Below, in pieces: positions 58,604-61,957 of a DNA stretch of 64,000 nt. Within the stretch, counting starts at the first letter, position 1, and each line of letters opens with the position of its first letter. The notes below the pieces were generated by a model that did no database searches, had not been told where the DNA came from, and was given only the letters and a program-made list of their open reading frames with translations. Source of the DNA: Stappia sp. ES.058 (GTDB taxonomy: Bacteria; Pseudomonadota; Alphaproteobacteria; Rhizobiales; Stappiaceae); contig NZ_LT629784.1 in the NCBI RefSeq assembly GCF_900105595.1, forward strand, positions 186,001 to 250,000. The letters are read 5' to 3'. The position numbers were made by a program, and so were the translations under genes.

Positions 58604-59275
58604 GATGGAACCTCCGGGTGGAATTCAGCAGATTTTCACGGCCCCTGGTCAGGAGCCGCCGATCGGGTTTATGCAATATGAAAGTGACAAGACGTCACGA
58701 TGAAGGTCTGCAGGGCTGGCAGGTCGTCCGCTTTGACGCCCCGATTCCGCGGAGCAACGTCACTCTCTCATTTTTCGCGTTCGAAGACGCGCCGCGTGCG
58801 CGCGTTCCGCAAAGACGCGACCATGGGGCGTCTTCGACACTTTCACCATTGCGATAGCATGATGATCGCAGGGAGTTTAGGGGGTCACGGCGTGACGGTG
58901 ATCGAACAGGGTGGTGATTCCGGCAATCCGGGCATTCTGGTCCGGTTTTCCAAGGCCCACTGGGCCTTCAGCGCCCGCCGGGACATTGTGTTTGTGATCG
59001 GGTTCGCGATCATCGCGCTATCGATGCCTGTCGGGGGCACGGAAATGATCCTCGGCACGACAACATGGATCGCCTTTTCGTGATCTTCACGGCGGGATTT
59101 CAGATGCATCCCTCTCTGCTCGATCATTACATCTGGCATCCGGGCACGGATCGCAGGCTGCGCCAGGACCTGAGGATCGGGAAAGCGCAAGCGCGCGCCT
59201 GAAGGGCTTTTCGCCAACGAGGGTTACACTTCCTATATGCTCCGATACACTTGGATCCGTAAAATCGGAGGCGTG
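58604..59275. other. Gene-poor interval with one weak small-ORF candidate
   Basis: About 670 bp between dgkA and the first winged-helix gene. Apart from the small frame at 58892-59083 nothing coding was recognised on either strand. No clear promoter was found, but the dgkA promoter must lie at its left end and the winged-helix gene promoter at its right. Confidence 0.4.
58892..59083 (+). CDS. Possible small membrane protein (doubtful)
   Basis: 63 residues from GTG 58892, which has AGGGGG 8 bp upstream; an in-frame ATG at 58859 lacks a ribosome site. It contains one hydrophobic segment (DIVFVIGFAIIALSMPVGG near 33-51) and no recognisable family. Codon use is not clearly coding. Included because of the ribosome site and helix only. 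Confidence 0.25.
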   Translation: MTVIEQGGDSGNPGILVRFSKAHWAFSARRDIVFVIGFAIIALSMPVGGTEMILGTTTWIAFS

Positions 59276-59698
59276 ATGAGCATACCCATGGATGATGGCG
59301 CCGCCCCGACCGACTATCGCCTGAGACGTCTTCTCGAGGTCTATTACGATCTGACCCTCCAAATGCAGGAGCGTCTGGGGGCCTCGGACGCGAGCGATGT
59401 GTTGATGCTGGTCCTTGTCGCCATCGGCGACTTGCGCGGTGCGCCGATGGATGCCGAACTTCTCGCCGAAAAACTGGAAAGCTCCCGTTCGACCGTCGAG
59501 CGTGGTTTGAAACCCTATCTGGCCTCTGGCACGGTTCGAAAAGGTCGGCGCGGCAAATCCGTCGTCTATCTCTTCGATGCGGCCCGGGAGTTCCGCCGCG
59601 AGGACGGGACGCAAGCAGCTCCAGGTGCCGACGCAGACATGACCGTTGGCATGGTCCGGGTTCTCATGGCGACGGTTTTCGACATTGCAACAGATTGA
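59276..59698 (+). CDS. Winged-helix DNA-binding protein A (paralogue pair)
   Basis: 140 residues from ATG 59276 behind GGAGG; a longer frame from 59237 has no ribosome site. An N-terminal helical part (RRLLEVYYDLTLQMQERL near 15-32) precedes a helix-turn-helix with MDAELLAEKLESSRSTVERGLKPYLASGTVRKGRRGKSVVYLF near 57-99, a typical wing. I do not recognise a named family; it is MarR-like in size and layout. It is GC-rich like the genome. The next gene encodes a paralogue of exactly the same length. Confidence 0.75.
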   Translation: MSIPMDDGAAPTDYRLRRLLEVYYDLTLQMQERLGASDASDVLMLVLVAIGDLRGAPMDAELLAEKLESSRSTVERGLKPYLASGTVRKGRRGKSVVYLFDAAREFRREDGTQAAPGADADMTVGMVRVLMATVFDIATD

Positions 59699-59867: not shown

Positions 59868-60290
59868 GTGCCGACTCAGAACGAAGAGTTGCCGACACAG
59901 GCGCATCGTATTCTGCGCCTCTACGAAATGTTTTTCAGTCTCATGTTTCGTTTCATGGAAGAGTATGAAGTAGATGATCTTGGTCAGCTTATGATATTGA
60001 CCACAATAGCGATTGCAAATGCAAACAAGGTCGACCCGGATATCGAAACGATTTCTGAAGAAACAAACATTCCTTACTCTACGGCACGACGAAAGATCGA
60101 GAGAATGTGCTCCGAGGGTGTTTTGGATATGCGGAAAGAGAATCAGAAACTTCTGTTCTCGATATCGAATTCAATGAAGTTTGCACATCCTGATCAAATT
60201 GAAGAAAATATTAATAAAAGATTTCAGAATGAAGTAATGGATATTGTTGTTGGCTCGATAAATTCAATAATACTGGAAAGAAAGAAGTAA
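59868..60290 (+). CDS. Winged-helix DNA-binding protein B, AT-rich paralogue
   Basis: 140 residues from GTG 59868 behind GAGGGGGG. The plan is the same as protein A: RILRLYEMFFSLMFRFMEEY near residues 14-33, then TISEETNIPYSTARRKIERMCSEGVLDM near 62-89, and a C-terminal amphipathic helix. Its codons are AT-rich (AAT, ATA, GAA, AGA), unlike every neighbour, which suggests recent acquisition or a relaxed, weakly expressed gene. The likely role is a local transcription regulator. Confidence 0.75.
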   Translation: MPTQNEELPTQAHRILRLYEMFFSLMFRFMEEYEVDDLGQLMILTTIAIANANKVDPDIETISEETNIPYSTARRKIERMCSEGVLDMRKENQKLLFSISNSMKFAHPDQIEENINKRFQNEVMDIVVGSINSIILERKK

Positions 60291-60552: not shown

Positions 60553-61098
60553 ATGGCTTGGACAACCGAACGCGAAGATCTTTTGAGGAAACTGTGGCTT
60601 CAGGGCCTGAGCGCCAGCCAGATCGCTTATGTCATGGCGGGTGTGACGCGCAATGCGGTCATCGGCAAGGCGCATCGCATGGGCCTTCCCAAACGGTCGC
60701 CGTCGACAAGCCATCGCCCCAAGCAGCGGGTCCAGCGTGGCCAGCCGTCACTTGCATGTGTCGGCGGCAAGCCGGCCGTTCGTGACAGCGCACCGGACGT
60801 CCGGTCCACCCCGCGCTACGACCTTGACCTCGAGGCCTCCGCCTTCGAGAGCGAGCACTCGAGTGTGTCCTCGGAAGACCGTGTCACGTTGATGACGCTG
60901 ACCAGCAAGACCTGCAAGTGGCCGATCGGCGATCCGGCAGACGCGGATTTCCACTTCTGCAGCCGCGATGCGGACAACAATCGTTCCTACTGCGAGTTTC
61001 ATCATCGTCTTGCCTATCAGGGCATTCGGCGCCGTCGCAGCGGTGCAACGCAGCCTGACGTCAAGCGGATTGCTCCGATGCGGGCCATTGCGGTCTAG
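60553..61098 (+). CDS. gcrA: GcrA cell-cycle regulator
   Basis: 181 residues from ATG 60553, where the conserved start MAWTTEREDLLRKLWLQGLSASQIA begins. The N-terminal helix-turn-helix (residues 1-45, ending GKAHRMGL) reads CcrM-methylated GANTC sites. The C-terminal module TCKWPIGDPADADFHFCSRDADNN...YCEFHHRLAYQ (near 136-170) binds the housekeeping sigma factor. It is a cytosolic activator of S-phase genes. It is followed directly by a terminator and an unusual repeat array. Confidence 0.95.
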   Translation: MAWTTEREDLLRKLWLQGLSASQIAYVMAGVTRNAVIGKAHRMGLPKRSPSTSHRPKQRVQRGQPSLACVGGKPAVRDSAPDVRSTPRYDLDLEASAFESEHSSVSSEDRVTLMTLTSKTCKWPIGDPADADFHFCSRDADNNRSYCEFHHRLAYQGIRRRRSGATQPDVKRIAPMRAIAV

Positions 61099-61156
61099 CG
61101 GCATGGTTCGGGTACGCGTCGTCTGATCTCCCTCCCAAGCAGCCGATGTTTGCCCC

Positions 61157-61188
61157 GGCGGGGCCGGTGTTCCGGCCCCGCCATTTTT
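61157..61188 (+). terminator. gcrA intrinsic terminator, head of a repeat array
   Basis: GGCGGGGCCGG-TGTT-CCGGCCCCGCC, a perfect 11-bp stem with tetraloop, then ATTTTT; 58 bp past the gcrA stop. It looks like the ancestor of the tandem units that follow. Confidence 0.92.
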
Positions 61189-61480
61189 GATCTGCGCCCG
61201 GCGGGGCGCGGGGCCGGTGTTCGGGCCGCGCCATTTTTGATCTGCGCCCGGCGGGGCGCGGGGCCGGTGTTCGGGCCGCGCCATTTTTGATCTGCGCCCG
61301 GCGGGGCGCGGGGCCGGTGTTCGGGCCGCGCCATTTTTGATCTGCGCCCGGCGGGGCGCGGGGCCGGTGTTCGGGCCGCGCCATTTTTGATCTGCGCCCG
61401 GCGGGGCGCGGGGCCGGTGTTCGGGCCGCGCCATTTTTGATCTGCGCCCGGCGGGGCGCGGGGCCGGTGTTCCGGCCGCG
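61181..61480 (+). repeat. Six tandem 50-bp units, each a terminator-like hairpin with a competing hairpin
   Basis: Units start at 61181, 61231, 61281, 61331, 61381 and 61431 with CCATTTTTGATCTGCGCCCG and are identical to each other except for the end of the last one. In each, GCGCCC-GGCG-GGGCGC (hairpin A) overlaps by five bases the left arm of hairpin B, GGCGCGG...CCGCGCC. In five cases hairpin B runs straight into the next unit's ATTTTT. The minus strand is open in all three frames only because the unit contains no stop codons. There are no unique spacers, so it is not a CRISPR array. Confidence 0.95.
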
Positions 61481-61576
61481 CAAAACCCATTCCGTTTGAT
61501 TTTGCTCATTGCCTTCAGACCCGCTTCGGGCAACCGTGTTGTTTCAGTATTTGCGAATGAAAGGAGCCGTGCGTTC

Positions 61577-61957
61577 ATGACCGCACATTTCGGCCTGAAG
61601 AAAATCCGTCTCAATCTCGCCCGCACCAAGGAGTTTCCGAACGGCTCCGCTCGTCACGGCTATGAGTTCATCGCGCCGCTCGATGCTGAGGATCACATCG
61701 ATCCCGCATCCTGGAAGGCGCACAAGGAGCATTGCCGCGTTCGCCGGTTCTGGGCCGACGAGGAAGAGGACATTGGCCATCTGCGCCATCGTCCGGGCGG
61801 TTCCTGGGGCTTTCACTACGATATCGAGGGCGACGAGGACGACGAAGCCGGCTACCGCTTCAACACGCATCCCTTCCGTCCCGGTGAATATGTCTCGATC
61901 AAGGATGATGATGGCGAGCTGCACACGTTTCAGGTCGTGACCGTTCAGGATCTTTGA
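61577..61957 (+). CDS. Conserved hypothetical protein
   Basis: 126 residues from ATG 61577 with AAAGGAG about 11 bp upstream. It starts MTAHFGLKKIRLNLARTKEFPNGSARHGYEFIAPLD. The C-terminal half carries acidic clusters (ADEEEDIGHL, EGDEDDEAG) and ends with HPFRPGEYVSIKDDDGELHTF. No signal peptide or membrane segment; probably a small cytosolic beta-rich protein. I recall similar short alphaproteobacterial hypothetical proteins but no function. It follows the repeat array by 96 bp. Confidence 0.8.
   Translation: MTAHFGLKKIRLNLARTKEFPNGSARHGYEFIAPLDAEDHIDPASWKAHKEHCRVRRFWADEEEDIGHLRHRPGGSWGFHYDIEGDEDDEAGYRFNTHPFRPGEYVSIKDDDGELHTFQVVTVQDL

Follow-up and report, generated by a model that had tools for sequence, protein, structure and literature searches.

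Why should a single bacterial gene be followed by what looks like a row of transcription terminators, copied one after another? The question is raised by a 64,000-nucleotide stretch of the genome of Stappia sp. ES.058, referred to here as the window, in which a gene of the gcrA family is followed by a tandem array of hairpins. TRF places this array at 61158-61481, with a period of 50, 6.5 copies, 98% matches and a score of 627; the runner-up tandem array within the window scores only 89. The array opens with an intrinsic terminator (61157..61188, plus strand) whose hairpin, at 61157-61182, has a perfect 11-bp stem of G-C pairs and a TGTT loop and is followed by ATTTTT up to 61188. The folding energy of 61150-61190, which contains this first hairpin, is -28.9 kcal/mol, a value equalled by one of 200 shuffles. 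Five identical 50-bp units come next (61189..61438, plus strand), each composed of a linker with a small hairpin A, a terminator hairpin B and ATTTTT. The last copy (61439..61481, plus strand) is decayed: it matches the unit at 98% over 43 bases and retains the hairpin, with the T-tract gone and CAAAA at its end. The features of an intrinsic terminator, a GC-rich stem-loop leading directly into a T/U tract, are present in six of the seven copies. A first-pass annotation, made from the letters alone, had described the same coordinates, perfect first hairpin, T-tracted units and T-less last copy. All of these hold when checked by TRF, on the sequence itself and by a hairpin scan, and the hairpin and T-tract units also support its reading of the array as terminator-like.

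The terminator-like sites of the array lie on the plus strand only, with none on the minus strand inside it. The internal units have weaker, mismatched stems (hairpin -19.7), and the fold energy of a single one compared with shuffles gives z -0.76 (61195-61240) or z -1.59 (61189-61238). For the whole array the value is z -3.21, with 0 of 100 shuffles as good. What marks the internal units is their T-tracts and their repetition, and not fold energy alone. Since arrays are found in 12 of 14 Stappia genomes, an assembly artefact is unlikely as their source; the copy number given for the window is the number as assembled.

The gene to which the array is attached (60553..61098, plus strand) encodes 181 aa and matches Pfam GcrA (PF07750) with 145.9 bits against a cutoff of 26.9. 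The first-pass annotation had taken it for a master cell-cycle gene. It does belong to the GcrA family, but as a divergent, long-branched paralogue, and the same genome carries a second GcrA gene (G000 C1:546393-546905). In a tree of 44 rows, for which only those of about 90 matches that had loci were included, 17 paralogue genes (from the 14 Stappia genomes and three of one neighbouring genus) are separated from the rest by a branch supported at 100/99; the window gene sits on the long branch with these counterparts. Two rows call for care in reading this tree, as L054 is misread at a contig edge and the long-branched L039, from another genus, stands next to the paralogue branch, possibly falsely. 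Its own long branch sets the window gene apart from a canonical gcrA orthologue. The gene also misses the NCBIfam GcrA equivalog cutoff of 280 bits (145.2), but this cutoff does not discriminate, because the second copy (180.6) and two copies of other genera (190.6 and 195.7) miss it too; it is the tree that separates the paralogue from other GcrA copies. Ten named records hold the nearest paralogue genes, nine of them labelled Stappia (S. stellulata, S. indica and S. taiwanensis among them) and one labelled as a Rhodobacteraceae MAG. The window gene could be a neofunctionalised regulator. Just upstream of it, two small proteins (59237-59698 and 59868-60290) have sub-cutoff Pfam matches (HVO_A0261_N; DUF4423 and TrmB). 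The next gene after the array (61577..61957, plus strand) encodes a small protein with a weak match to DUF7686 (20.9 bits, below the cutoff of 24). Between the array and this gene lies TTTGATTTTGCTCATTG (61495-61511), which looks like the next gene's own promoter; a similar element was seen by eye before the next gene in 12 of the 14 Stappia genomes and is absent from G005 and G007.

Is the array peculiar to one strain? The unit was sought in related genomes and its copy number compared, as the first-pass annotation had suggested, and one to six units were found at the same place, with at least two hairpin-T units in 12 of the 14 Stappia genomes (11 by rule and G006 by eye). The window has six T-tracted units, G002 and G003 have four, G004, G005 and G007 three, and G011 three with the last decayed. 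Two are present in G001, G006, G008, G009 and G012, the second of G006 having a T-tract of T3 only, and G010 and G013 carry a single terminator. Unit after unit, the hairpins are followed within four bases by T4-T7, and by eye several arrays end, as in the window, in a decayed copy without T-tract. The unit sequences themselves differ between species, with periods of 41-50 bp; the value of 0 computed for the first period of G005 and G007 is a script artefact. Copy number varies even among near relatives, G002 having four units and G006 two with the same linker and a gene that is 95.6% identical, while the farthest multi-copy species has a GcrA paralogue 70% identical to that of the window. In G005, a convergent gene now follows which, judged by eye from its translation, resembles an acyl-CoA dehydrogenase. 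The array appears to travel with the gcrA paralogue, since it was kept in G005 although the downstream gene had been exchanged.

The differences in spelling between species lead to the question of how the copies within a genome remain so similar. Units other than the first have a mean identity of 0.97 within genomes (20 pairs, lowest 0.86) and of 0.69 between genomes (256 pairs, highest 0.98), and for 18 of the 19 units in the seven genomes with several such units, the closest match is another unit of the same genome. This set comprises 24 units beyond the first, with a spurious fourth unit of G004 removed and the second unit of G006 added by hand. Each species or clade has linkers and loops of its own: one linker is common to G005 and G007, another to G002 and G006, and a TGTT core to five species. 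The first hairpin takes part in this as well. Its identity with the second hairpin is 0.933 in the same genome and 0.743 in other species, a contrast reached in 0 of 10,000 shuffles that ignore kinship and reported too low, as the second-hairpin core of the window was mis-extracted. The two hairpins have a common loop in 9 of the 12 genomes as extracted. Neither the identity contrast nor the shuffles model phylogenetic kinship, and close relatives share linkers.

The stem of the first hairpin changes in a compensatory manner. Across 14 species, 4 of its 11 pairs have changed on both sides, and 0 of 500 shuffles gave as many; the number of further pair types (4, compared with 4.8 in shuffles) is not elevated, and the innermost pair is not formed in 6 of the 14 sequences. 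In G001, G008 and G009, a paired stem change seen in the first copy is found again in the second. Because units are alike within genomes and less so between them, and because compensatory changes recur in both of the first copies, the array is best described as a putative tandem terminator under concerted evolution. Of the two processes that the first-pass annotation had offered for the near-identity of the units, recent expansion or active homogenisation, the identities support the second. In G008 (L022), the loops of adjoining copies, AACA and TGTT, are reverse complements of one another, possibly the trace of an inversion at the palindrome.

GC-rich palindromes between genes are also typical of REP/RPE-type repeats, which are scattered through genomes. 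In contrast, the array unit is confined to one locus: a search of the 4,626,154-base genome found no second one, and the 14 matches to the unit outside the array (up to E 10) are led by 18 bases with an E of 0.08. A dispersed repeat family of the REP type, with identical units scattered genome-wide, had been named at the outset as the finding that would count against a special role, and it is ruled out by this single locus in 4.63 Mb. Arrays of comparable build are also rare. By a hairpin-plus-T4 rule applied to 864 kb (the window and 40 pieces of 20 kb, about 19% of the genome), 503 terminator-like clusters were counted, of which 487 are single, 15 double and one sextuple, the last being the array after the gcrA paralogue. 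Three T5 runs at steps of 33-63 bases occur at nine places in the whole genome, this array included, and none of the other eight has a cluster of at least two hairpins.

We consider it probable that the array is a fail-safe, one-way stop for the mRNA of the gcrA paralogue, made of tandem intrinsic terminators. The hairpins would terminate transcription in vivo, and a polymerase escaping the strong first hairpin would meet five more hairpin-U-tract stops of moderate predicted strength, which would keep read-through into the next gene low. Because T-tracts follow the hairpins on the plus strand alone, the array should act in this direction only. With its hairpin-T units in a row, it is compatible with the transcription block that the first-pass annotation had listed among its options. 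The array may have arisen from a single-copy ancestor by tandem duplication of one terminator, with slippage or unequal exchange keeping the copies alike in concert, while the last copy would have escaped and decayed. Selection would then have favored the multiplicity of the stops.

This last point can be challenged. The first terminator alone looks strong (-28.9), and the five extra ones may be superfluous. Copy number may be under little selection or none, given the weaker internal stems, the decayed ends, the T3 of G006 and the two species with one terminator, and the intact T-tracts of later copies are not independent evidence of selection because the copies are homogenised. The main rival explanation, which is possible although we would not expect it to be correct, is that slippage at a GC-rich palindrome copied one working terminator and that the extras do little, staying terminator-like only through continual mutual overwriting. 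Such a neutral expansion fits the turnover of period, linker and copy number between species, the weaker internal stems in the window, the single copies of G010 and G013 and the inverted loop of G008 (AACA versus TGTT), a possible product of template switching at the palindrome. However, tandem repeats tend to be lost with ease, and yet 12 of 14 species have retained two copies or more, the most distant of these with a GcrA paralogue of 70% identity. Moreover, there is no comparable array in the 864 kb sampled or at the eight other T5-triples of the genome.

The fail-safe reading treats each unit as a stop, whereas the first-pass annotation had seen in it two structures that cannot form together, as in attenuators. 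Hairpin A would then compete with terminator B in every unit, and read-through to the next gene would be graded. The overlap on which this rests is present in the window, as hairpin A (61194-61199/61204-61209) and a 7-bp hairpin B (61205-61211/61226-61232) share five bases. The folding of one unit and of two adjacent ones, which had been proposed along with it, bears out the mutual exclusion only in part. The optimal structure of a single unit contains both A and a shortened, bulged B (-25.8, compared with -21.8 when the 7-bp B is forced), and for two adjacent units the predictions include pairs between copies. Kinetic competition would be compatible with such equilibrium folding. However, by eye the units of other species have an overlap of 0-3 bases between linker hairpin and terminator, or a linker without a hairpin, and G005 has a different downstream gene. 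In the window species, the terminator hairpin of the units has a right arm unlike that of the first hairpin, and with this arm a 7-bp stem would extend into hairpin A. The overlap is probably a local, derived state that would weaken termination if anything, and not a conserved switch. With the array located 3' of the gene, the large overlap confined to the window species and the structures coexisting, it does not match a transcription attenuator, which has conserved, mutually exclusive terminator and antiterminator hairpins in a leader, and we regard an attenuator-like design as very improbable. Hardly credible is a protein-binding array, as had also been suggested, or a coding repeat on the minus strand. 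Long minus-strand ORFs do traverse the array, but the 50-bp unit changes the frame with each copy, by which minus-strand coding is rejected, and the arrays of other species have other sequences and periods (41-50 bp), which speaks equally against a shared binding site.

A further reading looks upstream of the first terminator. The 3' UTR contains a C-rich element, CTCCCTCCCAAGC (61128..61140, plus strand), whose CCCTCCC is kept unchanged by all 14 Stappia genomes, always ahead of the first terminator and at a variable distance from the stop codon. It does not belong to a family of such elements, as the genome holds one other match to CYCCCTCCCRRGC. The conserved CUCCCUCCC and the first hairpin might be released as a 3'-UTR-derived sRNA that pairs with Shine-Dalgarno-like sequences, with the array trimming or stabilising its 3' end; in sRNAs of rhizobia, an anti-Shine-Dalgarno character has been ascribed to loops of CCUCCUCCC (PMC3927594). 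In 4 of 14 genomes, Rfam gives sub-threshold matches to sRNAs of alphaproteobacteria, namely SorX (in the window and in L021), SorY (L023) and ar7 and ar14 (L029). These are far below the gathering score, with E values of about 1 to 7 that correspond to chance, and those of L021 and L023 fall mainly on the terminators. A known Rfam sRNA family was accordingly rejected, and no conserved structure was found upstream of the terminator. An sRNA is compatible with the terminator reading and with neutral expansion alike. It would leave the copies unexplained, and we think it rather unlikely.

Back-up termination has known precedents. The E. coli rrnB T1-T2 is a double terminator in which the second of two unlike hairpins backs up the first; the Stappia array shares the back-up arrangement, and only it is a homogenised array of up to six. 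A further parallel is offered by hairpin clusters downstream of stop codons which act jointly as an intrinsic terminator (Gupta and Pal, 2021; PMC8355165). The same study cites the pair of tandem hairpins that follows M. smegmatis gyrA, which is reported to terminate more efficiently than single hairpins. In these clusters, the predicted hairpins are spaced by less than 15 nt and mostly number two in the cases matched by RNA-seq, with poly-U not required. In the portion of that paper considered here they are presented without a stated repeat relationship, whereas the Stappia units are near-identical, T-tracted and evolving in concert. The Pyrococcus histone gene has four consecutive oligo-dT terminators, a main stop and back-ups catching read-through (PMC2253867), although these are archaeal and hairpin-independent. 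An intrinsic and a Rho-dependent terminator stand in tandem behind E. coli galM (PMC9927376), and plasmids make use of tandem terminators too, pSM240 with its four being one example (PMC6958937). Homogenised natural arrays of three to six copies were not found in the open-licence literature searched by title and start of abstract, in part among the best 15 of 1,796 and the best 15 of 148.

Tentatively, and with more doubt than confidence, we propose that bacterial terminators can behave as a rapidly evolving family of tandem repeats, by in-place copying and concerted evolution, with copy number as an evolvable dial for read-through and with the conserved CUCCCUCCC element perhaps yielding an sRNA. 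If so, the gcrA-paralogue locus of Stappia would document the process well, and other genomes would hold independent instances of it beside unrelated genes. A genus with one to six units at one gene end, in clade-specific spelling, is a ready natural series that bears on whether copy number is selected or slippage tolerated, and on how strong-palindrome repeats homogenise.

Candidates for such cases were sought with a pattern of three T5 runs with GSC before the last two, which is restrictive, misses T4 and low-GC arrays and is no census. Among 249 genomes from the order it picked out 34, and the reversed pattern used as a control about 18; among 396 genomes from the phylum the corresponding figures are 69 and about 37. 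The two samples overlap, and both contain the genome of the window. Much of this prevalence is background, and by eye many matches look like coding repeats or AT-rich chance. Four of the order matches were scanned, and hairpin-T clusters were found in G212, G122 and G093 and none in G061. G212 (L247) has four hairpin-T units followed by a decayed copy, G122 has a tRNA-Leu just before three tandem units (L248:2066-2295), and G093 has three clear units. As in the gcrA-paralogue array, related hairpin-T units follow one another here, three or four at a time, whereas the sequences are unrelated to it and the neighbour genes are others. The phylum sample also contains possible further arrays in G328 (C98:105659-105834) and G618 (C19:32588-32737), where repeats of 55-57 bases stand in tandem, with T5/T6 and with inverted repeats recognised by eye.
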